Shown here: positions 1 through 43,793 of the stretch, piece after piece
Layout of the letters: each line of letters starts with the position of its first letter
Numbering within the stretch: position 1 is the stretch's first letter
Source: Burkholderiales bacterium 70-64
GTDB lineage: Bacteria > Pseudomonadota > Gammaproteobacteria > Burkholderiales > Burkholderiaceae_E
Reading direction: 5' to 3'
Length of the DNA: 64,000 nucleotides
Assembly (NCBI GenBank): GCA_001898645.1
Contig: MKUQ01000035.1
Coordinates: forward strand, 21,539-85,538
Made by a program: the position numbers and the translations under genes
The notes under the pieces: model-generated
The model's input: the letters and a program-made list of their open reading frames with translations, nothing else
What the model was told of the DNA's origin: nothing
Database searches by the model: none

Positions 1-1523
1 TCGAGCGCATGCAGTGCGCGATCCAGCGCGGCCGGGAGCACGCCGCTGCGGCAGAAGACGAGCGCGGTCCAGTGCGCGCCGAGCAGGTCGCCGAGATGCG
101 TCGCGCCGGCCACCATGTCGTCGAGCGGGCACTCACGCGCCACCGAGCCCGGTGCGGGCCCGCCGCCGAAGTGGTCGGAAGGCGCATTCAGCGAGGAGTC
201 GGTGTAGTCGATGGCGCTGGTCTGGCGGGGATTCACCACGCTGGCGACCTGCCGGTGGCGCTGCGCCAGCGACAGCACCGCTTCGCGCATCAGCGAGAAG
301 CCGCGCGACGGCGGAGCCATGAATTCAGTGCTCTGGATGGCGCTGGCGGCGTTGATGTGGAACGCGTGCAGCCGCTCTTCCGAGTACGTGTCGAGCAGCC
401 CGATCGGGGACCAGCCGCGGATGACGGCGGCCAGCTTCCAGGCCAGGTTGTAGGCGTCGTCGAAACCCGAGTTCAATCCGCGTACGCCGAAGATCGGCAT
501 CGCGTGGGCGGCGTTGCCGGCGAACAGGATGCGTTCGTAGCGGTAGCGCGGCAGCGTCATCGCCCCGGCGCGATAGGCACTGATCCACACGATGCGCCAC
601 GGCAGGTGCGCCTCGCCGATCATCTCGAGGTGGCGCGCCACGAACGCCGCCACCGCCGGCTCGGCGAGCGCCGCGTCGAGGTCGGCGTCATCGGGGATCT
701 GGTAGTCGAGGCGCCAGATGTCGTCGGGCTGCTTGTGCATCAGCACCGTGTAGCCCGGGTTCGACGGGGGATCGAACCACGCGCGGCGCTCGGCCGGGTA
801 GGCGCTGGGCAGCTCGATGTCGACGATCACGTACTTGCCCTCGAAGGCCGTGCCCTCGAGCTTCAGGCCGAGCTGCCTGCGCACCGGGCTCTGGCCGCCG
901 TCGCAGGCGACCAGCCAGTCGGCATCGAGCGAATACTCGACCGCCGCGCCGCCCGGCACCGCCGCGCCGGTGCCGGGCGAAGCGGTGTCGATCGAGGCGG
1001 GGTCGGTCGCACCCGCGCGGACGGTGAGCCCGACGCCGTCTTCGCGCTGCACGAAGCGGATCACCTCGTTGCCCCAGCGCAGGTCGATCAGCCCGGATTG
1101 CCGCGCGATCGCCTCGACGAGGAACTGCTCGATCCAGTACTGCTGCAGGTTGATCATCGGCGGCAGCTTCTGGTCGTCGTCGTGAGGCATGGTGAAGCGG
1201 AAGATCTCGCCGGTGCGGTAGAAGCTGCGGCCGCCGACCCAGTCCAGCCCCTTGTCGAGGAATGCCTCGAGCGCGCCCAGCCGGGCGATGATCTCCAGGC
1301 TGCGCCGCGAGATGCAGATCGCCCGGCTGCCGACGCAGACCGTGTCGTCCGCCTCGAGCACCACCGACGGGATGCCCCAGCGGGCGAGGGCCAGGGCGAG
1401 CGCCAGGCCCACCGGACCGCCGCCGGCGATCGCGACGCGGTGACGGGCCGGGTCGCGGGTGCCGTCGAGCGGGGGGATCGACGGCTCGTGGCGGACGTAC
1501 GAGAAGGGGCCGATGGACTGCAC
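1..1523 (-). CDS. FAD-dependent aromatic monooxygenase (MhpA/PheA/TfdB-like), 3' end truncated by window edge
   Basis: Minus-strand reading from GTG at 1523 gives VQSIGPFSYVRHEPSIPPLDGTRDPARHRVAIAGGGPVGLALA (FAD GxGxxG motif) and later GNAAHAMPIFGVRGLNSGFDDAYNLAWKLA. No stop before position 1. The ORF track misses it. Confidence 0.85.
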   Translation of the reverse strand, partial: MQSIGPFSYVRHEPSIPPLDGTRDPARHRVAIAGGGPVGLALALALARWGIPSVVLEADDTVCVGSRAICISRRSLEIIARLGALEAFLDKGLDWVGGRSFYRTGEIFRFTMPHDDDQKLPPMINLQQYWIEQFLVEAIARQSGLIDLRWGNEVIRFVQREDGVGLTVRAGATDPASIDTASPGTGAAVPGGAAVEYSLDADWLVACDGGQSPVRRQLGLKLEGTAFEGKYVIVDIELPSAYPAERRAWFDPPSNPGYTVLMHKQPDDIWRLDYQIPDDADLDAALAEPAVAAFVARHLEMIGEAHLPWRIVWISAYRAGAMTLPRYRYERILFAGNAAHAMPIFGVRGLNSGFDDAYNLAWKLAAVIRGWSPIGLLDTYSEERLHAFHINAASAIQSTEFMAPPSRGFSLMREAVLSLAQRHRQVASVVNPRQTSAIDYTDSSLNAPSDHFGGGPAPGSVARECPLDDMVAGATHLGDLLGAHWTALVFCRSGVLPAALDRALHAL

Positions 1524-1567: not shown

Positions 1568-2716
1568 CTACATCGTTCGCGCGATCAGATCCTTCATGAC
1601 TTCGTTCGATCCGCCATAGATGCGCTGAACACGGGCGTCCATGAAGAGCTGCGCGATCGGGAATTCTTTCATATATCCGTAGCCGCCGAAGATCTGCAGG
1701 CATTCGTCGACGATGCGCCACTGCCTGTCCGAGCACCACCATTTGGCCATCGGGGCATCGGAAGGTTCGAGGGATTCACCGCGGGCGATACGCTCGATCA
1801 GACTGTCGATGAAGACGCGCGCCACGCGCGCTTCGGTCGCGCATTCGGCAAGCTTGAATCGGGTGTTCTGGAAATCCCACAGAGTCTGCCCGAACATCTT
1901 GCGGTTCTTCGCATGCTCGACGGTCAGCTCGATCGCCCGTTCCGCGGTGGCGACGCCGGCGATACCGATCGAGACGCGTTCCTTCTGGAACACGTCCATC
2001 AGCTGGCCGAAGCCGCGGCCTTCCTCGGCGCCGATGAGATGGCCGGCCGGCACTCGTACGTCGTCGAGAAAGATCTCGCAGGTGTCCAATCCGTTCTGGC
2101 CGATCTTCTCGAGCACCTTCCCGACGCGGAAACCGTCGCTTGCCCGGGTATCCACCATGAACAGCGAAATCCCCTTTGCGCCATGGCCACCGGTGCGTGC
2201 GGCCACGATCGAGAGCTCGGCCTGCCGACCATGCGTGATGAAGATCTTGCTCCCGTTGAGCACATAGTCGTCGCCGTCGCGCCGGGCGATGGTGCGCAAC
2301 GCCTTGACGTCCGTGCCGGCATCCGGCTCGCTGATGCAGACCGAGAGCATCGCCTCGCCCCGGGCGATCGAAGGCATCCACTTCAGGAGCTGCTCGTGGG
2401 TAGCGGTTCCGAAGAGGAAGTGGGGTGCGTTGAGGGCCCCGGGGACGAAGCCGAAGCTCGTATCGCAGGCCTTGGCCTGCTCCTCGATGACGACGCACTC
2501 GTGAGCGAAGGTGCCGCCATGACCACCGTATTGCTCCGGAATGCTCATGCACAGCAGGCCGAGGCGGCCGGCCTCCCGCCATACCTCCCGATCGATCTGG
2601 TGCTGCCGCTGCCATTTCGCCTGATGAGGCACGACCCGGTCTGCGAAGAACCTGCGGGCGGTTTCCCGCAGCAGATCCAGCTCCTCGGTCATCCAGGGTG
2701 ATCGGTAAGGGTTCAT
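1568..2716 (-). CDS. acyl-CoA dehydrogenase
   Basis: MNPYRSPWMTEELDLLRETARRFFADRVVPHQ...ISEPDAGTDVKALRT...QIFGGYGYMKEFPIAQLFMDARVQRIYGGSNEVMKDLIAR. ATG at 2716 preferred over the TTG at 2731 used by the ORF track. Confidence 0.95.
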   Translation of the reverse strand: MNPYRSPWMTEELDLLRETARRFFADRVVPHQAKWQRQHQIDREVWREAGRLGLLCMSIPEQYGGHGGTFAHECVVIEEQAKACDTSFGFVPGALNAPHFLFGTATHEQLLKWMPSIARGEAMLSVCISEPDAGTDVKALRTIARRDGDDYVLNGSKIFITHGRQAELSIVAARTGGHGAKGISLFMVDTRASDGFRVGKVLEKIGQNGLDTCEIFLDDVRVPAGHLIGAEEGRGFGQLMDVFQKERVSIGIAGVATAERAIELTVEHAKNRKMFGQTLWDFQNTRFKLAECATEARVARVFIDSLIERIARGESLEPSDAPMAKWWCSDRQWRIVDECLQIFGGYGYMKEFPIAQLFMDARVQRIYGGSNEVMKDLIARTM

Positions 2717-2789
2717 TCGCCAAAACTCCAAACAGACGGTGGATTCATCTCAAGGCTTCCACAGCTGGGCCATGAAGATTCATAAAATT

Positions 2790-2807
2790 CTACCAACTGG
2801 TTGGTTG
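2790..2807. promoter_or_regulatory. candidate TetR-family operator ctaccaactggttggttg
   Basis: Inverted repeat ACCAAC-TG-GTTGGT in the divergent intergenic region. 16/18 identical to the perfect palindrome at 9982-9999. Confidence 0.7.
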
Positions 2808-2864
2808 ACATGTCGAGCACGGCGAAATACGATGGCTGCTCATCTGATTCGGACGGGAGGAGAC

Positions 2865-4325
2865 GTGACGATCGATATCGCCCAGTCGACCTGGAATGCC
2901 AAGGCGTTCTCGAGCGGATGGCGCCCGCTTTCGGGTGAGCCGCTGCCGGTGATGGAGCCGGCCACGGGCCGGCGGCTCGCCGAGGTCGCGTCGGCGGGCG
3001 CGAAGGACGTCGAGCAGGCAGCGGCGGCGGCGAAGGTCGCGCAGCCCGGCTGGGCGGGGATGCCCTTCGCAGCGCGTGCCGCGATCTTCCGCCGCGCCGC
3101 GATGCTGCTGGAGGGTCAATTCGATGCGTTCGCCGACTGGATCGTCCGCGAGACGGGGGGCATCCGCCCGAAGGCGATGTTCGAGCTGGGCTCGGTCGTC
3201 AATCACCTGCACGAAGCGGCGGCGATGTCGACGCAGCCGCGCGGGATCGTGCTGCCGAGCGACGGTCCGGTGCTGAGCGTCGCGCACCGCGTCGCGCACG
3301 GTGTCGTCGGCGTGATCACGCCATTCAATTTTCCGTTCCTGCTGTCGAGCCGCGCCGTGGTACCGGCGCTTGCCGCCGGAAATGCGGTCGTGCTGAAGCC
3401 GGATCCGCGCACGCCGGTTTCGGGGGGCATCCTTCTCGCTGCGCTGTTCGACGCAGCGGGCCTCCCGCCGGGCGTGCTCCATGTCCTCCCCGGCGGCGCC
3501 GAGGCCGGCGAAGCCCTGGTCGCGGACCCGAGCGTCACGATGGTGTCCTTCACCGGCTCGACGGCTGTCGGGCGACGCGTGGGCGAGCTCGCGGGGCGTC
3601 ACCTGAAGAAGGTCGCCCTCGAGCTCGGCGGGAAGAACGCCCTGATCATCCTCGAAGATGCCGATCTCGATGCCGCGGTATCCAGCGGATCCTGGGCGTC
3701 GTGGCTGCACCAGGGCCAGATCTGCATGAGTGCGGGCCGCCATCTGGTGCATCGACGCATTGCCGGCGAGTACGTCGCGAGGATGACCGAGAAGGCGCGG
3801 GCCATGCGGGTCGGCGATCCGTTCCGCGAGGCCGTCGCGCTCGGGCCGCTCATCAGCGAGCGGCAGCGCCAGCGCGTGGCGCGCATCGTGGCCGATTCCA
3901 TCGATATGGGGGCGAAGCTGTGCGCCGGCGGCATTTCGCGGGAGCTGTTCTACGACGCCACGGTGCTCGACGAGGTGAGCCCGCGGATGCCCGCGTTTCG
4001 CGAGGAGATCTTCGGCCCGGTCGTGTCCGTCACCGCCTTCGATTCGGACGACGAGGCGGTGGCGCTGGCCAACGATACCGAATACGGGCTGTCGGCGGGC
4101 ATCCTGACCGCATCGCTGGCGCGCGGCATGGCGATCGCGCGCAGGCTGAACGTGGGCCTGGTGCACATCAACGACCAGACCGTGAACGACGACGGATTCA
4201 TGCCCATGGGCGGACGAGGAGCGTCCGGGAACGGCTCGCGCCACGGCGGTCCGGCGAACTGGGACGAGTTCACCCAGTGGCAATGGACCACTTATCGCGA
4301 TACGCCGCCGACTTATCCGCTGTAG
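2865..4325 (+). CDS. NAD(P)-dependent aldehyde dehydrogenase (benzaldehyde/vanillin dehydrogenase type)
   Basis: GTG start with ggagg RBS. Motifs GVITPFNFPF, VSFTGSTAVGRRVGE, LELGGKNALIILEDADLDAA, EEIFGPVVSV. Confidence 0.92.
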   Translation: MTIDIAQSTWNAKAFSSGWRPLSGEPLPVMEPATGRRLAEVASAGAKDVEQAAAAAKVAQPGWAGMPFAARAAIFRRAAMLLEGQFDAFADWIVRETGGIRPKAMFELGSVVNHLHEAAAMSTQPRGIVLPSDGPVLSVAHRVAHGVVGVITPFNFPFLLSSRAVVPALAAGNAVVLKPDPRTPVSGGILLAALFDAAGLPPGVLHVLPGGAEAGEALVADPSVTMVSFTGSTAVGRRVGELAGRHLKKVALELGGKNALIILEDADLDAAVSSGSWASWLHQGQICMSAGRHLVHRRIAGEYVARMTEKARAMRVGDPFREAVALGPLISERQRQRVARIVADSIDMGAKLCAGGISRELFYDATVLDEVSPRMPAFREEIFGPVVSVTAFDSDDEAVALANDTEYGLSAGILTASLARGMAIARRLNVGLVHINDQTVNDDGFMPMGGRGASGNGSRHGGPANWDEFTQWQWTTYRDTPPTYPL

Positions 4326-4404: not shown

Positions 4405-5484
4405 ATGCTTTTCGAGCCCGCTTCCTTTCGAACCCCCCGCAACCACCGGCGCGCGAAGGGGTGCACCCGGTGGTTGCACCGCTTCGCGCGCCGGTGGCGT
4501 GACGGCTTCGGCGCACGCGTGCGCACGTTCGTGCCGGCGCTGGCCTGTGCCCTTTCCCTGTGGGCGCCGGCATCGACCGCGATGGCCGACAACGGCAAGC
4601 TGTATCGCCTGCTGGTCGGCTTCGCTCCCGGCGCGGGGACCGATACGCTCGCGCGCATCTATGCGGACGCCCTGGCCGAAGCACTGGGGGCTTCGGTGGT
4701 GGTCGAGAACCGGCCCGGCGCCGGCGGATTGATCGCCGCGCAGGGGCTGAAGAACGCCGCTCCTGACAGCAACACCCTGATGATGGCGGTCGACCACCAG
4801 GTGGTGCTGCTGCCGCAGATCCTCAAGCATCCCGGCTTCGACGTCGAGCGCGATTTCGTGCCCATCGCGAGGTTGACGGCCTACTACCTCTGCCTCGCGG
4901 TGCACCCCTCGTCGAGCGCGAGCGACCTCGCAAGCTTCGCCAACGTGGTGCGCATGAACCCCGCACTGGGAAGCTTCGGCATGCCGGCACCCGGATCGAA
5001 TGCCCAGTTCATGGGGTACGTCATCGGGCGGAAATTCAACGTGACCCTGAACCCGATTGCCTATCGCGGGGCCGGCCCGGCGTTGACCGACCTGATTGCC
5101 GGCCAGGTGCCTGCGGCGATCGTGCCGTGCGACGCGATGGCCGAGTACCGCAAGGCCGGCCGGCTGAAGATCATCGCGGTCGCGGCCGACCAGCGCCTGC
5201 CCGCGATGCCCGAGGTTCCGACGATAGGCGAGTCGGGGCTGTCCGGCGTGCCGTCGGACTATTTCCTTGCGGTCTATGGGCCCGCGTCGATGAAGCCCGA
5301 GGCGTTGAAGCAGATATCGGAGGCCACGGCGCGCATCGCCGCTTCCCCGAAGTTTGCCGAGAGGGTGGCTGCGACCGGCTTGAATCTCTCGTTCGCCCCG
5401 GCCGACGACCTGCGCCGCATGGCCCGGCGGATGAGCGAATTCTGGGCCGAGCAGATCAGGGACTCCGGCTTCCAGCCGAACTGA
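4405..5484 (+). CDS. tripartite tricarboxylate transporter substrate-binding protein (Bug/TctC family); alternative GTG start at 4519
   Basis: LYRLLVGFAPGAGTDTLARIYADALAEALGASVVVENRPGAGGLIAAQ...GNAQFMGYV...MAEYRKAGRLKIIAV: Bug family signature. Signal peptide VRTFVPALACALSLWAPASTAMA fits the GTG at 4519. Confidence 0.92.
   Translation: MLFEPASFRTPRNHRRAKGCTRWLHRFARRWRDGFGARVRTFVPALACALSLWAPASTAMADNGKLYRLLVGFAPGAGTDTLARIYADALAEALGASVVVENRPGAGGLIAAQGLKNAAPDSNTLMMAVDHQVVLLPQILKHPGFDVERDFVPIARLTAYYLCLAVHPSSSASDLASFANVVRMNPALGSFGMPAPGSNAQFMGYVIGRKFNVTLNPIAYRGAGPALTDLIAGQVPAAIVPCDAMAEYRKAGRLKIIAVAADQRLPAMPEVPTIGESGLSGVPSDYFLAVYGPASMKPEALKQISEATARIAASPKFAERVAATGLNLSFAPADDLRRMARRMSEFWAEQIRDSGFQPN
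4439..4497. repeat. two overlapping, mutually exclusive inverted repeats at the Bug gene 5' end
   Basis: gcaaccaccgg (4439-4449) pairs with ccggtggttgc (4467-4477). ccaccggcgcgcgaag (4443-4458) pairs with cttcgcgcgccggtgg (4482-4497), a perfect 16-bp stem. Confidence 0.85.
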
Positions 5485-5516
5485 CATCCAGCGATTTCCG
5501 AAAGGCAGGACAGGTC

Positions 5517-6689
5517 ATGAAGATCATCAAGGTCGAATGTCTCCCGGTATCGACGCCGCTGAAGAAGCCGGTGTACATGCCGAACACGCGGATCACACGC
5601 ATCGACAGCCTGGTGCTCAAGCTGCACACCGACGACGGCCGCATCGGCTTCGCCGACTCGGGCGACACTTCCTCGTGGTACCGCGGCGAATCGCAGGATT
5701 CGATGGCGAGCATGATCTGTGACGTTTTCGCGCCGCGGATCCTGCTGGGCGAGGATCCGCGCAGGATCGAGAAGATCGTCGGCCGGATGGACCTGCTCGG
5801 CCGCGACAACAACCAGGCGAAGTCGGTGGTCGACTTCGCGTTGCACGATCTGAAGGGAAAGATCCTGGGCGTCCCGGTGTACGAACTGCTCGGCGGGCGC
5901 ACGGTCGACGGTGCGCGCCTCGGCTGGGTGCTGTCGGCAGGCCGCCCGGCCGACGTGGTCGCCGAGGCACGGGCCGCGCTCGCACATGGGTTCAGCCTGC
6001 TCAAGTTGAAGACCGGGCACGGGACGCTCGATGACGACGTCGCGATGGTCTCGGCCGTGCGCGAAGCGATAGGGCCGGATGTCCGGCTGACCGTCGATGC
6101 CAACGGATTCTGGACCTACGAGGAAGCCCTCAAGACGATCCGCAGGCTCGATCGCCACGGGCTCGAGCTGATCGAGCAGCCGTTGCCGCACTGGGATATC
6201 GAAGGCATGGCGCGGCTGCGCGACAAGGTCGGCACGCCCATCTATGCCGACGAATCGGCGCAGGAGCTGCATCACATCAAGGAGATCATCGATCGCCGTG
6301 CCGCCGACGGGCTGTTCATCAAGACGCAGAAGGCGGGCGGCCTGCTCAAGTCGCAGCGCTGGCTGACGATGGCCCGGCTGTCCGGATTGCCGGTGATGTG
6401 CGGGTGCATGATCGGATCCGGCCTGGAGACCAGCCCGGCGGCGCACCTGTGGGTGGCAGACCAGTGGGCCTCGCAGTACCTGAACGAAGCGCTCGGGCCG
6501 CTGATGATCCACGGGGTGTGGAACAGCGCCGACATTCCGGCGGGCGCGGACATCGCCTTGAACATCCCACGCTTCCAGGACGGGATGCTCTATCCGAACG
6601 AAGGGCCCGGCCTCGGCATCGAGCTGAACGAGGAGTTCCTGCTGCGCAACCGCACCGAGGGCAAGCAGCCGAGATCGGTGAGCCTGTAG
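5517..6689 (+). CDS. mandelate racemase/muconate lactonizing enzyme family (enolase superfamily)
   Basis: LLKLKTGHGTLDDDVAMVSAVREAIGPDVRLTVDANGFWTYEEAL...LELIEQPLPHWDIEGMARL...PIYADESAQ...KTQKAGGLLKSQRWL. Confidence 0.93.
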   Translation: MKIIKVECLPVSTPLKKPVYMPNTRITRIDSLVLKLHTDDGRIGFADSGDTSSWYRGESQDSMASMICDVFAPRILLGEDPRRIEKIVGRMDLLGRDNNQAKSVVDFALHDLKGKILGVPVYELLGGRTVDGARLGWVLSAGRPADVVAEARAALAHGFSLLKLKTGHGTLDDDVAMVSAVREAIGPDVRLTVDANGFWTYEEALKTIRRLDRHGLELIEQPLPHWDIEGMARLRDKVGTPIYADESAQELHHIKEIIDRRAADGLFIKTQKAGGLLKSQRWLTMARLSGLPVMCGCMIGSGLETSPAAHLWVADQWASQYLNEALGPLMIHGVWNSADIPAGADIALNIPRFQDGMLYPNEGPGLGIELNEEFLLRNRTEGKQPRSVSL

Positions 6690-6712
6690 GCGATGCAGCC
6701 CTTTCCCGCGAG

Positions 6713-7918
6713 ATGAGCATGGGTCCGCTGGCAGGCCTGCGGGTCATCGAGTTCGCCGGGCTCGGACCGGCGCCCTTCTGCGCGATGCTGCTCGCGGACC
6801 TCGGCGCCGAGGTCATCAGGTTCGACCGGATGGCCCCGGATCCGGCGGCTCCGGCAGCGGCGTCCGCGAGAGGCGACGTGCTGGGTCGCGGCAGGCGTTC
6901 GATCGCGATCGACCTGAAGGAACCGGCCGCCATCGAGGTGGCCCTCAGGGTCGTGGAACGCAGCGATGCCCTGGTCGAAGGGTTCCGGCCGGGGGTCATG
7001 GAGAAGCTGGGCCTCGGCCCCGAGGTCTGCCTCGCCCGGAACCCCAGGCTGGTTTACGGTCGCGCGACCGGGTGGGGCCAGTCGGGGCCGCTCGCGCACT
7101 GCGCAGGTCACGACATCAACTACATCGCCCTGAGCGGCGTGCTGCACAGCATGCGCCGGCGCGACGAGCGTCCGCTGCCCGTGCCCGGCTTCGCGGGCGA
7201 CTTCGGCGGCGGAGGGATGCTCCTCGCGCTGGGCATCGTAGCCGCAGTGCTCGCGGCGCGCGAGTCGGGCCATGGACAGACCGTCGACGCGGCGATCACC
7301 GACGGGTCGGCCCTGCTCGCGGCGCTCATATACGGGTGGAGGGCGGTGGGCCTGTGGCGCGACGAAGCAGGCAGCAACAGCGGCGATTCGGGAGCCCATT
7401 TCTACGACACGTATCGCTGCGCCGACGGAAAGTACATCGCCGTCGGCGCGATCGAGCCCCGGTTCTATGCACTGCTGGTCGAACGATGCGGCCTCTCCGG
7501 CGAGATCGATCTGGGTGCGCAGTGGAAGCCGGAGGCGTGGGCTGCACAAAGACAGAAGCTCGCGCAGGTGTTCACGACACGCACGAGGGATCAGTGGTGC
7601 GAGCTCCTGGAAGGAACGGATGCCTGCTTCGCGCCGGTGCTCGACCTCGCCGAGGCGCCCCGCCATCCGCACAACAGGGCGCGCGGGACCTTCGTGGAGA
7701 TCGACGGCGTCGTCCAGCCAGGCCCCGCGCCGAGATTCGGCCGGGACCGGCCCGACATTCCGGGGCCGTCGCCTATGCCCGGGGCGGACACTGACGCGAT
7801 CCTCGCCGAGCACGGCTGGAGCCGGGACGAGATCGGGTCTCTGCGCGAGCGCGGGGTCGTGGTCCAGGCCGCTCCGCCGGGCGATGGCCGGCCCGCCGGC
7901 GCGAGGAGCGGGCAATGA
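6713..7918 (+). CDS. CaiB/BaiF family CoA transferase (alpha-methylacyl-CoA racemase-like)
   Basis: MSMGPLAGLRVIEFAGLGPAPFCAMLLADLGAEVIRFDR...RGRRSIAIDLKEP...LVEGFRPGVMEKLGLGPEVCLARNPRLVYGRATGWGQSGP. Confidence 0.93.
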   Translation: MSMGPLAGLRVIEFAGLGPAPFCAMLLADLGAEVIRFDRMAPDPAAPAAASARGDVLGRGRRSIAIDLKEPAAIEVALRVVERSDALVEGFRPGVMEKLGLGPEVCLARNPRLVYGRATGWGQSGPLAHCAGHDINYIALSGVLHSMRRRDERPLPVPGFAGDFGGGGMLLALGIVAAVLAARESGHGQTVDAAITDGSALLAALIYGWRAVGLWRDEAGSNSGDSGAHFYDTYRCADGKYIAVGAIEPRFYALLVERCGLSGEIDLGAQWKPEAWAAQRQKLAQVFTTRTRDQWCELLEGTDACFAPVLDLAEAPRHPHNRARGTFVEIDGVVQPGPAPRFGRDRPDIPGPSPMPGADTDAILAEHGWSRDEIGSLRERGVVVQAAPPGDGRPAGARSGQ

Positions 7919-7980: not shown

Positions 7981-8724
7981 TCACCCCGACGGGCGTTCCC
8001 GGCGCGAGCGCCGCTCGGCGCGGTGGGTGCTCACGCCCTCGGCGAAGATGTCCATGAACGCGTCCGCGATCTCGTCGATCGACAGCTTGCCGTCGGCGCG
8101 GTACCAGCGAGGCACCCAGTTCAGCGCGCCGAACAGCATCGCCGACGCCAGCCCGGGATTGCAGGGCCGGATGCTGCCATCGGCGATCCCTTCCAGGACC
8201 AGGCTGCGCACGGTCGTGTCGAGGCGCTTCTGGAACTTCCGGATCACGCCCCCGGGCACCTGGTCGACCGGCTTGGATCCCACCATCGCGAGGCAGCGCC
8301 CGAAGTCGTTGTTCTGCGCATGCGCCAGCTGCGTGGCGAAATCGCGCAGGCGCCCGAGCACGGGAACCGAGCGATCGCCCATCCGCTCGATCACCGATTC
8401 GAGATCCTCGAACGATCGCACCAGGCACTGGTAGAGGATCGACTCCTTGCTCTCGATGTAGTGGTAGAGCGTGGCCTTGTGCATGCCGAGCCGATCGGCG
8501 ATCGAATCGAGCGATGTGGCCTCGTAGCCGTTTTCGGCGAAGAGCTGGGCCGCCACACGGAGAATGGCGGTCAGCTTGTCCTCGTGCTTGCGCGGCCGGG
8601 CGCGGCGACGCGCAGGCGGCACGCCGCTGGACGGCGCCGCCCCTGATCGAGAGGCCCTTCGGGAAACCGGCCCTTCGCGCCGGGCGCTCTCCGGTCTGTC
8701 CGCTTTCTCGACGTGATCAGCCAC
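7981..8724 (-). CDS. TetR/AcrR family transcriptional regulator
   Basis: KLTAILRVAAQLFAENGYEATSLDSIADRLGMHKATLYHYIESKESILYQCLV: TetR HTH. Confidence 0.92.
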   Translation of the reverse strand: MADHVEKADRPESARREGPVSRRASRSGAAPSSGVPPARRRARPRKHEDKLTAILRVAAQLFAENGYEATSLDSIADRLGMHKATLYHYIESKESILYQCLVRSFEDLESVIERMGDRSVPVLGRLRDFATQLAHAQNNDFGRCLAMVGSKPVDQVPGGVIRKFQKRLDTTVRSLVLEGIADGSIRPCNPGLASAMLFGALNWVPRWYRADGKLSIDEIADAFMDIFAEGVSTHRAERRSRRERPSG

Positions 8725-9967
8725 CAGGGCGCTCGCTTCGATGCACGGCGATCGCGTGCGATTCCAGCAGACGACCGATGCTTGCGTCGCTCATTCCGAT
8801 CTCGCGCAGCACCTCGAGAGTGTGCTCGCCGAGCAGAGGGGCGCGTCGGCGTACGCCTCCGGGTGTCGCAGACAGCTTCGCGGGTACGCCGGCCACGCAC
8901 ACAGGCGTCGAAGAGCCCGGGTGTTCGATTTCGGGGAGCATGTCGCGAGCAGAGAAATGAGGGTCGGCGAATATTTCCTGTGCAGTATAGATCGGTCCGA
9001 ATGGTACGCGCGCACCCATCAGATCGGTGAGTTCCGCCTTGGTGCGTGAGCGGGTGAAGGCTTCGATTTCCGCCTGCAGCGCCGCCCGGTTTTCCCAGCG
9101 TCCTTTTTCCGAGGCATAGCGGGGATCCCCGACCAGATCCGGGCGCTGCATCACGGCGCACAATTCGACCCACTGCGGGTCGTGGACCGCGGCGATGGCG
9201 ATCGCGCCGTCCTTCGTGGCCACGGTACCGAAGGGTGCCATGCCGGGCATGCCGTTGCCGATCGGTCGCGGCGACACGCCCGTGTAGGCATAGCTCGTGG
9301 TGAGCAATTCGGAGAGCGCCAGCACGGTATCGACCATCGCGACGTCGACGTATTGTCCGCGTCCGGTGATGCGTGCGTTCCACAATGCAGCCATCGTTCC
9401 GAAGGCGGCCATCAGTCCGGGGACGGTGTCGCCCAATCCTCCGCCGACCTTGGTCGGATGGTCGGCATCGGGGCCGGTCATGCCCATCCACCCGCCCATC
9501 GCCTGAGCGACGATGTCGAACGCCGGCCAGTCGATGTAGGGGCTGGTGCCGCCCGCGTGATCGCCGAAGCCGCGAACGGACGTATAGACCAGCCGCGGAT
9601 TGCGTTTCGACAGCGCATCGAAACCCAGGCCCAGCCGATCGAGCACGCCGGCGCGGTAGTTCTCGACCAGCGCGTCCGCCCGTCCGGCCAGCTCGCCGAA
9701 GACCTCCCGGCCTTCGGGCCGCTTGAGGTCGATGACGATCCCGCGCTTGTTGCGGTTGCAGAACTGGAACAGGCCGCCGTATTCGCGGACCGAGTCGTCC
9801 GGAGTGTGGGGGCCGGTGCGGCGGAAGAAATCGCCCTCCGGCGGCTCGATCTTGATGACATCGGCGCCGTGGTCGGCCAACAACTGCGTGCAGAAGGGTC
9901 CGGCCAGCGCATGCGTCGCATCGAGCACGCGCAAGCCGGCAAGAGCCCCGTTGAGTGCGGCAACCAT
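8717..9967 (-). CDS. CaiB/BaiF family CoA transferase
   Basis: MVAALNGALAGLRVLDATHALAGPFCTQLLADHGADVIKIEPPEGDFFRRTGP...NRNKRGIVIDLKRPEGREVF. ATG at 9967; the ORF-track start at 9988 is a TTG inside the operator palindrome. Overlaps the TetR start region by 8 bp. Confidence 0.93.
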   Translation of the reverse strand: MVAALNGALAGLRVLDATHALAGPFCTQLLADHGADVIKIEPPEGDFFRRTGPHTPDDSVREYGGLFQFCNRNKRGIVIDLKRPEGREVFGELAGRADALVENYRAGVLDRLGLGFDALSKRNPRLVYTSVRGFGDHAGGTSPYIDWPAFDIVAQAMGGWMGMTGPDADHPTKVGGGLGDTVPGLMAAFGTMAALWNARITGRGQYVDVAMVDTVLALSELLTTSYAYTGVSPRPIGNGMPGMAPFGTVATKDGAIAIAAVHDPQWVELCAVMQRPDLVGDPRYASEKGRWENRAALQAEIEAFTRSRTKAELTDLMGARVPFGPIYTAQEIFADPHFSARDMLPEIEHPGSSTPVCVAGVPAKLSATPGGVRRRAPLLGEHTLEVLREIGMSDASIGRLLESHAIAVHRSERPGG

Positions 9968-9981
9968 CTCTTCCCCGAATA

Positions 9982-9999
9982 CAACCAACTAGTTGGTTG
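9982..9999. promoter_or_regulatory. perfect 18-bp palindrome CAACCAACTAGTTGGTTG, candidate TetR operator
   Basis: Perfect dyad 15 nt upstream of the CoA-transferase ATG. Matches 2790-2807 at 16/18. Confidence 0.8.
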
Positions 10000-10056
10000 G
10001 GAATTATGCCGCACCGGCACCGTCTGCCGCAACCGCGGCGGACGGCGCGACCCGCT

Positions 10057-11310
<1,254 letters not shown>

Positions 11311-11464: not shown

Positions 11465-12145
11465 ATGTCGCTCGTCTATCTCGTTCGCCACGCGCAGGCC
11501 TCGTTCGGGGCCCAGTGCTACGACCAGCTGTCCGATCTCGGCCGCCAGCAGGCGCGCTGGCTCGGCGAGTACTTCGCGGCGCGCGGGCTGCGCTTCACGA
11601 AAGTGCTGGCCGGCACCCTGGCGCGCCAGCAGGACACGGCGCGCGAGGTGATCGCGGCGATGACCGGCGGCGAGGCGCAGGCGCCGCTGGTGCATGCCGG
11701 GCTGGACGAATACCCCGGCGAGGCGCTCTACGCGGCCTGGACCGGCATGAACGACCCGCGTCCGCAACAGCGCCTGGACCAGCGCGAATACTGGCGCACG
11801 TTTCGTGCCGCGATGCAGGCCTGGGCCGACGACCGGCTGAGCGGAGTGCCCGAGAGCTGGGCCGCCTTCGGTGCGCGCGTGCACGAGGCAGTGAGCGAGG
11901 CGGTCCGGGGAACGGGCCGCGACGACGCGATCCTGGTGGTGAGCTCGGGCGGGGTGATCGGCCGCCTGGTGGCCGATGTCGCCGGCGCGCCCGCACGCAC
12001 CGCGATCGAGCTGAACCTGCAATGCCGCAACAGCGGCTTTTGCGAACTGATCGCCGGCGGCGGCTCGCTGCGGCTGCTCAGCTTCAACAACATCCCCCAC
12101 CTGGAGGCGCCGCCGCAGCGGCGCCAGGCGATCACGTTCGCATGA
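11465..12145 (+). CDS. histidine phosphatase (phosphoglycerate mutase) superfamily protein
   Basis: MSLVYLVRHAQASFGAQCYDQLSDLGRQQARWLGEYF: RHxx phosphatase motif. Confidence 0.9.
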   Translation: MSLVYLVRHAQASFGAQCYDQLSDLGRQQARWLGEYFAARGLRFTKVLAGTLARQQDTAREVIAAMTGGEAQAPLVHAGLDEYPGEALYAAWTGMNDPRPQQRLDQREYWRTFRAAMQAWADDRLSGVPESWAAFGARVHEAVSEAVRGTGRDDAILVVSSGGVIGRLVADVAGAPARTAIELNLQCRNSGFCELIAGGGSLRLLSFNNIPHLEAPPQRRQAITFA

Positions 12146-42595: not shown

Positions 42596-43793
42596 TCAGC
42601 GCCGGGCTTTCCCCGCGCCGGTGGAGGTCGGCCATCGCCCGCATCGGCGGATCGATGTGCGTGAAGAAGGCGAGATAGCCCGCGCACAGGTGGTTCAACC
42701 CCTCCTCGCCCTCGGCCGTGACGTCGTGGCGATGCTTGGGGCATCCGCCCCGGCAGGCGAACAGCACCGGGCACGTACGGCAGCGCTGCGGCAGGCGGTC
42801 GCGCTTGTCGCGCCCGAAGCGCCGCTGCTCGGGGCTGCCGGCGAGCTCGGCGAGGGACGCATCGTGCAGGCTGCCGCGCCGGAAGCGCGGGTAGACGTAG
42901 TGGTCGCAGGCGTAGACCGATCCGTCGTGCTCGATGGCCAGCGCCGCGCCGCAGACTTCGCTGTGCACGCACAGCCCGCCGGGCAGGCCCAGCCACTTGG
43001 CCAGCGCGACCTCGAACAGCTGGACGTGGATGTTCCCGACGTCGTGCCGGACCCAGCGATCGAAGATCGTGACCAGGAAGCGCCCCCAGTCCTCGCCCGT
43101 CACCGACCAGTCGGTGACGGGCCGGCGGCCGATGGCGATCCCGTCGGGCGCACCGAGCGCGAGGCCCTGGCCGCGCTCGTCTTCGTCGGCCACGGCCTCC
43201 ACCACCGGGATGAACTGCATGTGGCGCGAGCCGATGTCCTTGAGGAAGCGGTAGACCTCCAGCGGCCGGCCGCTGTTGGCGCGGCTCACGCAGGTCAGCG
43301 TGTTGAAGGCCACCTCGTGGCGGCGCAGGACCTCCAGGCCGCGCATCGCCGCGGCCCAGGTGCCGCGCCCGCGCGCGTCCACGCGGCTGCGATCGTGCAG
43401 CGCCTGCGGTCCGTCGATGCTCAGGCCGACCAGGAAGTCGTGCTCGGCCAGGAAGGCGCCCCACTCGTCGTCCAGCAGCGTGCCGTTGGTCTGCAAGGCG
43501 TTCTCGATCGTCCTGCCGCCGGCGTAGCGGCGCTGCAGCGCCACCACCCTGCGAAAGAAATCGACCCCTGCGAGGGTGGGCTCGCCGCCCTGCCAGGCGA
43601 AGTCGACATGCCTGCCGGGCTGGGCTTCGATGTACTGGCGCACGAACGCTTCCAGCGTCTCGTCGCTCATGCGCCAGTGCGGCGCCGGCGCGAAGAAGGC
43701 CTCCTTCTCGAGATAGAAGCAGTAGCGGCAGCGAAGGTTGCACTTCGGGCCGATCGGCTTGGCCATCAGGTGGAAGGGGAACGCGGCGGGCAT
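42543..43793 (-). CDS. radical SAM/SPASM protein, anaerobic sulfatase-maturating enzyme type
   Basis: MAKPIGPKCNLRCRYCFYLEK (CxxxCxxC), FAWQGGEPTLAG, SPASM-like CGAALAIEHDGSVYACDHYVYPRFRRGSL...CRTCPVLFACRGGCPKHR. Confidence 0.92.
   Translation of the reverse strand: MPAAFPFHLMAKPIGPKCNLRCRYCFYLEKEAFFAPAPHWRMSDETLEAFVRQYIEAQPGRHVDFAWQGGEPTLAGVDFFRRVVALQRRYAGGRTIENALQTNGTLLDDEWGAFLAEHDFLVGLSIDGPQALHDRSRVDARGRGTWAAAMRGLEVLRRHEVAFNTLTCVSRANSGRPLEVYRFLKDIGSRHMQFIPVVEAVADEDERGQGLALGAPDGIAIGRRPVTDWSVTGEDWGRFLVTIFDRWVRHDVGNIHVQLFEVALAKWLGLPGGLCVHSEVCGAALAIEHDGSVYACDHYVYPRFRRGSLHDASLAELAGSPEQRRFGRDKRDRLPQRCRTCPVLFACRGGCPKHRHDVTAEGEEGLNHLCAGYLAFFTHIDPPMRAMADLHRRGESPALIRKILAANGRRGATSRR

Follow-up and report, generated by a model that had tools for sequence, protein, structure and literature searches.

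A predicted TetR operator at two intergenic sites of a Burkholderiales catabolic gene cluster

PaaR, a TetR-type protein, represses phenylacetate catabolism in Burkholderia cenocepacia and Thermus thermophilus (PMC9493321, PMC6651687). Operators related in their half-sites have been described for it: ACCAACCGGTCGGTT in PpaaH of B. cenocepacia, and AACnAACGTTnGTT for TTHA0973 (PMC9493321, PMC6651687). For PfmR (TTHB023) of T. thermophilus HB8, the predicted site is TACCGACCGNTNGGTN (PMC7022988). MbdR of Azoarcus sp. CIB is also a TetR repressor, and its inducer is the first CoA thioester (PMC4424350); both PaaR and MbdR respond to aryl-CoA (PMC9493321, PMC4424350).

Local TetR repressors of CoA catabolic clusters are a common kind of system, and the window considered here (the whole 64-kb stretch of DNA that was analysed) appears to contain a further example. 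Judged by sequence, its TetR joins the TetR repressors of CoA-dependent catabolic clusters, with a predicted operator and target genes that differ from those of PaaR. PaaR, PfmR, and MbdR are the closest systems in operation. PaaR resembles the predicted system in three respects: a TetR repressor; a CoA-dependent aromatic pathway; and a palindromic operator made from related half-sites, the window half-site AACCAAC being similar to those of PaaR. However, the window operator, CAACCAACnnGTTGGTTG, has a 2-bp centre and longer arms, with a spacing unlike that of the PaaR operator, and the associated genes are not paa genes but encode acyl-CoA dehydrogenase (ACAD), aldehyde dehydrogenase (ALDH), TctC, MLE, racemase, and CoA transferase. 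PfmR is likewise a TetR protein, and a solved Thermus TetR is among those closest to the window TetR by sequence, but PfmR has half-site bases of its own and regulates phenylacetate and fatty-acid genes. MbdR is a betaproteobacterial TetR protein governing an aromatic pathway through an 18-bp palindrome that spans promoter elements, although its operator, ATACN10GTAT, is unrelated to that of the window, and its pathway is the anaerobic 3-methylbenzoyl-CoA route. By analogy, an acyl-CoA is the favoured candidate for the effector of the window TetR. This effector probably differs from that of PaaR.

Two palindromes in one gene cluster

The cluster and its neighbour comprise the following features, for which gene starts are predictions.

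1 to 1496, minus strand: FAD-dependent aromatic monooxygenase (PRK08132 subfamily), directly downstream of the ACAD gene on the same strand
1568 to 2731, minus strand: acyl-CoA dehydrogenase (ACAD), start TTG 2731 or ATG 2716
2790 to 2807, unstranded: predicted operator site 1, CTACCAACTGGTTGGTTG; homologous position kept in orthologous loci
2865 to 4325, plus strand: aldehyde dehydrogenase (ALDH); closest solved relatives are 4-hydroxybenzaldehyde, vanillin, and benzaldehyde dehydrogenases
4405 to 5484, plus strand: TctC/Bug periplasmic solute receptor
5505 to 6689, plus strand: enolase-superfamily MR/MLE protein; closest solved relative 2QDE (543 bits)
6710 to 7918, plus strand: alpha-methylacyl-CoA racemase homologue (CaiB/BaiF fold)
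7981 to 8724, minus strand: TetR-family regulator, TetR_N plus TetR_C_24; recognition helix MHKATLYHY
8717 to 9967, minus strand: class III CoA-transferase; closest named family succinyl-CoA:mesaconate CoA-transferase, below its cut-off
9982 to 9999, unstranded: predicted operator site 2, CAACCAACTAGTTGGTTG, a perfect palindrome; kept before the CoA-transferase gene in orthologous loci
10057 to 11235, minus strand: pobA, 4-hydroxybenzoate 3-monooxygenase (TIGR02360, 682 bits, above cut-off)

Both palindromes are intergenic: site 1 lies between the ACAD and ALDH genes, and site 2 about 15 nt upstream of the CoA-transferase ATG (9967). They differ at two of 18 positions; the initial annotation had paired them as a 16/18 match, and its sequence and coordinates are exact. 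Nor does the motif recur at many unrelated genomic positions. With up to three mismatches allowed, the operator pattern finds only sites 1 and 2 in the window (100 dinucleotide shuffles gave 0.00), and with up to two these remain the only places across the 4.72-Mb genome. The next-best genome matches (n=2) have three mismatches each, which is the estimated chance level. A weight matrix scores the two sites at 35.7 and 30.1 bits, and the next non-overlapping place in the window at 7.0; the matrix was trained on operators including sites 1 and 2, so these scores are not independent, whereas the mismatch counts are. In 300 genomes of the order, about 0.03 matches per genome have one mismatch or none, a frequency about equal to that of the reversed-pattern control, and two sites in one genome, 7.2 kb apart, are therefore far above background. 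Other pattern matches within the order are at background level; four were inspected, and none adjoins such a cluster. No published paper containing the exact operator strings was found in the openly licensed literature searched.

Two further palindromes may be recorded here. A perfect CAACCAACTAGTTGGTTG is present at L095:1501 (G098), in a genome that lacks the TetR ortholog; a different TetR gene, with VSVGSVYQYF in its helix region, lies about 0.5 kb away. Within the window, the ACCGACCAGTCGGT-like place at 43100 was dropped as an operator, lying inside a coding region; there, 43100-43117 reads TCACCGACCAGTCGGTGA, a PaaR-like palindrome in a gene that by eye is radical-SAM and sulfatase-maturase-like, and is probably due to chance.

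Conservation of the operator with its regulator

The regulator has the amino-terminal helix-turn-helix of the TetR family (PF00440, 53.8 bits against a cut-off of 24) and a TetR_C_24 domain (PF17932, 76 bits). A short palindromic operator near its own gene and over promoter elements, as expected for the family, is likewise found. The last nucleotides of the CoA-transferase gene overlap tetR. MbdR is among the sequence relatives of the regulator, as is a Thermus TetR (3vpr) that we take to be PfmR. The 18-bp palindrome is very probably the operator of this TetR, as the initial annotation had proposed; the assignment draws on phylogenetic footprinting, co-occurrence, and recognition-helix conservation.

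In nine other genomes with an orthologous TetR, from the Burkholderiales (including Hydrogenophaga) and Acinetobacter, the operator precedes the same genes. This makes ten loci with the window, from a non-exhaustive ortholog search; the cluster is split over contigs in two genomes, and contigs are short in several of the relatives, which are metagenome-assembled genomes. Among the genomes compared, the TetRs nearest to that of the window (L021, 75%; L018, 59%; L019, 56%; L020, 54%) each come with at least one palindrome site that departs from the YR pattern at no more than one position, and the loci of more distant TetRs have no site with fewer than three mismatches. L021, which is the same single contig as L121, comes from a genome of the window's genus. 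So does L122 (TetR 56%), which has one operator, not two. The second site is absent there, as expected where the CoA-transferase gene has been relocated into the ACAD unit; the brief sequence available upstream of tetR contains no operator-like site. The promoter region of L123 (G422), a fragment of a contig, is uninformative.

The recognition helix, [MI]HKATLYHY, is invariant in the window TetR and its orthologs. Paralogs (23-37% identity) have different helices, among them TKPTLYYY, SKPTLYYY, and TKAALYHY, and at their loci every site has at least three mismatches. Operator and helix thus go together, since HKATLYHY is kept in orthologs and changed in paralogs.

Co-occurrence was evaluated in 68 Hydrogenophaga genomes after the pattern had been fixed. 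The TetR is present in five, and the pattern in 5/5 genomes with the TetR and 1/63 without it (Fisher p=5.8e-7, a value to be read with the provisos that genomes of one genus are not fully independent and that L018, one of the five, was known beforehand). The extra match (G899) has no cluster genes around it. The newly added Hydrogenophaga loci follow the window in placing one site between the ACAD and ALDH genes and another ahead of the CoA-transferase gene.

Some loci depart from this plan. Two Hydrogenophaga genomes have a third operator (L146:3206 and L148:1490) about 200 bp upstream of the CoA-transferase operator, which possibly serves a divergent gene. In L018, a 46-bp perfect palindrome (11913-11958; GCCTTCCATTTTGTCAACCAACT plus its complement) is centred on the operator (11927-11944) and gives it TTGACA on both sides. 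The Acinetobacter loci L019 (12203-12253) and L020 (12600-12649) have two tandem operators, 32-33 bp apart, in the ACAD/MLE gap, an arrangement that suggests two dimers. Two weak sites, L019:18365 and L020:18684, score no better than the shuffle maximum and are not counted as operators. The cluster module is accessory, because in Acinetobacter only 1/120 sampled genomes has the TetR, that one being the centre of the sample.

Promoter elements and the mode of control

The following promoter elements are predicted around the two sites.

2787 to 2816, minus strand: predicted ACAD promoter, TCGACA, 18-nt spacer, TAGAAT
2805 to 2833, plus strand: predicted ALDH-operon promoter, -35 TTGACA at 2805-2810, 17-nt spacer, -10 TACGAT at 2828-2833
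10003 to 10008, minus strand: -10-like box CATAAT, read from the sequence, 3 nt upstream of operator 2

On the ALDH side, the -35 element shares 3 nt with the right arm of site 1; on the ACAD side, the promoter spacer is almost entirely the site 1 operator. Two promoter-like matches straddle site 1, versus 0.1 in shuffles. In 8/8 Burkholderiales loci, TTGACA lies at the edge of the operator and is followed after 17 nt by a -10-like box; conservation of the ACAD-side promoter is poorer than that of its plus-strand counterpart. In Acinetobacter, the second tandem operator has TTGACA-17-TACATT (L019) or TTGACT-17-TACATT (L020), as in the ALDH-side arrangement; this was read by eye, the scripted promoter comparison having used the first tandem copy there. 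At site 2, CATAAT lies so close to the operator that the transcription start site would be expected within it. Relatives likewise have a -10-like box immediately before their CoA-transferase operator. No consensus -35 element was found for the site 2 promoter, the best match being poor.

These operator placements predict steric repression at both sites. Site 2 further predicts autoregulation, because tetR sits behind the CoA-transferase gene. Without inducer, a dimer at site 1 would block the divergent ALDH-TctC-MLE-racemase and ACAD-monooxygenase promoters, and a dimer at site 2 would block the promoter that the CoA-transferase gene shares with tetR. As a CoA thioester of the pathway builds up, the repressor would probably release, and the local regulon would be induced. 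We infer both the physical binding and the repression by this TetR from sequence comparison.

Could the palindrome belong to another regulator (a different TetR, or a protein of MarR or LysR type), with the cluster TetR acting elsewhere? The genome encodes 25 TetR proteins, three others on the same contig as the cluster TetR, and the half-site is like the general ACC[AG]AC type used by several TetRs. However, the operator co-occurs across genera with the cluster TetR and with its recognition helix, and no further regulator gene is seen between the paired sites, making a different binder very improbable. Binding by the cluster TetR as an activator, at all or some of the promoters, is if anything less probable still: some TetR proteins do activate transcription, but these operators cover the -35, spacer, or start-site region, a position typical of repression.

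Chance, a repeat element, and a terminator stem are all extremely unlikely explanations of the two palindromes. A weak terminator-like call does cover site 2 on the minus strand, yet that match has five pairs and no real T run. Against these readings stand the shuffle expectation of 0.00, the presence of just two copies genome-wide, the intergenic location of the sites, and the conservation of homologous positions. The genome-wide count and the Hydrogenophaga survey with its loci refute chance and a repeat element outright.

The gene set and a possible aromatic-acid pathway

The initial annotation had placed the cluster at 1-10 kb. Its left side reaches further: the FAD monooxygenase gene (PRK08132, 610 bits versus a cut-off of 416) extends about 270 bp left of the window start (L124:9269-11035). 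Beyond site 2, pobA lies upstream of CoA-transferase-tetR on the same strand, a neighbour without an operator of its own. Of the two CoA transferases that had been counted, the class III enzyme at 8717-9967 stands. The product of 6710-7918 is better called a racemase homologue, because it scores 362 bits to AMACR/MCR but 118 bits to the closest CaiB/BaiF entry that is not a racemase, and because it is identical to MCR at the positions aligned with the catalytic His, Asp, and Glu of that enzyme (presumably numbers 126, 156, and 241).

The shared operator is in line with the earlier proposal of one inducible pathway. Its substrate, then left wholly undefined, can be narrowed, since the gene set suggests that an aromatic acid is channelled to hydroxybenzoate. 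The Acinetobacter clusters have a different ALDH, 38-40% identical to that of the window and still closer to 4-hydroxybenzaldehyde dehydrogenase (623 bits). These clusters also encode a 3-hydroxybenzoate 6-monooxygenase that scores above cut-off, a gentisate-dioxygenase-like cupin that falls below its own, maleylacetoacetate-isomerase-type and fumarylacetoacetate-hydrolase-family proteins, an OprD porin, and, just short of its cut-off, a transporter of the aromatic acid/H+ symporter type. The gentisate genes of L020 are preceded by an operator.

An aromatic-acid pathway is, on balance, the likelier role of the cluster. Given the resemblance of the ALDH, the FAD monooxygenase in the ACAD unit, and the Acinetobacter gentisate genes, this pathway probably forms hydroxybenzoate from an alpha-branched aromatic acid. 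The carboxylic acid would be activated by CoA transfer, then epimerised and dehydrogenated; cleavage would yield an aryl aldehyde, which the ALDH would oxidise to hydroxybenzoate. We infer this order of reactions, and the substrate, from the gene set. More tentatively, the cluster may specify a new aerobic pathway under a new TetR regulon, in which an alpha-branched aromatic acid (such as a substituted arylpropionate or a benzylsuccinate-like compound) is converted to 3- or 4-hydroxybenzoate via CoA transfer, alpha-epimerisation, dehydrogenation, and an aryl aldehyde, with an enolase-superfamily enzyme of new function. No described pathway with this gene combination was found in the openly licensed literature searched.

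The predicted regulon supplies a precise operator for an uncharacterised regulator, and ties orphan enzymes, including the enolase-superfamily protein close to 2QDE, into one unit of control. Identification of the effector would also point to the pathway substrate, because the repressor probably senses a CoA thioester of the pathway. As for the wider distribution of the monooxygenase, L021 has a 76% identical copy, and a 38% relative is found at the edge of the Acinetobacter cluster in L020.
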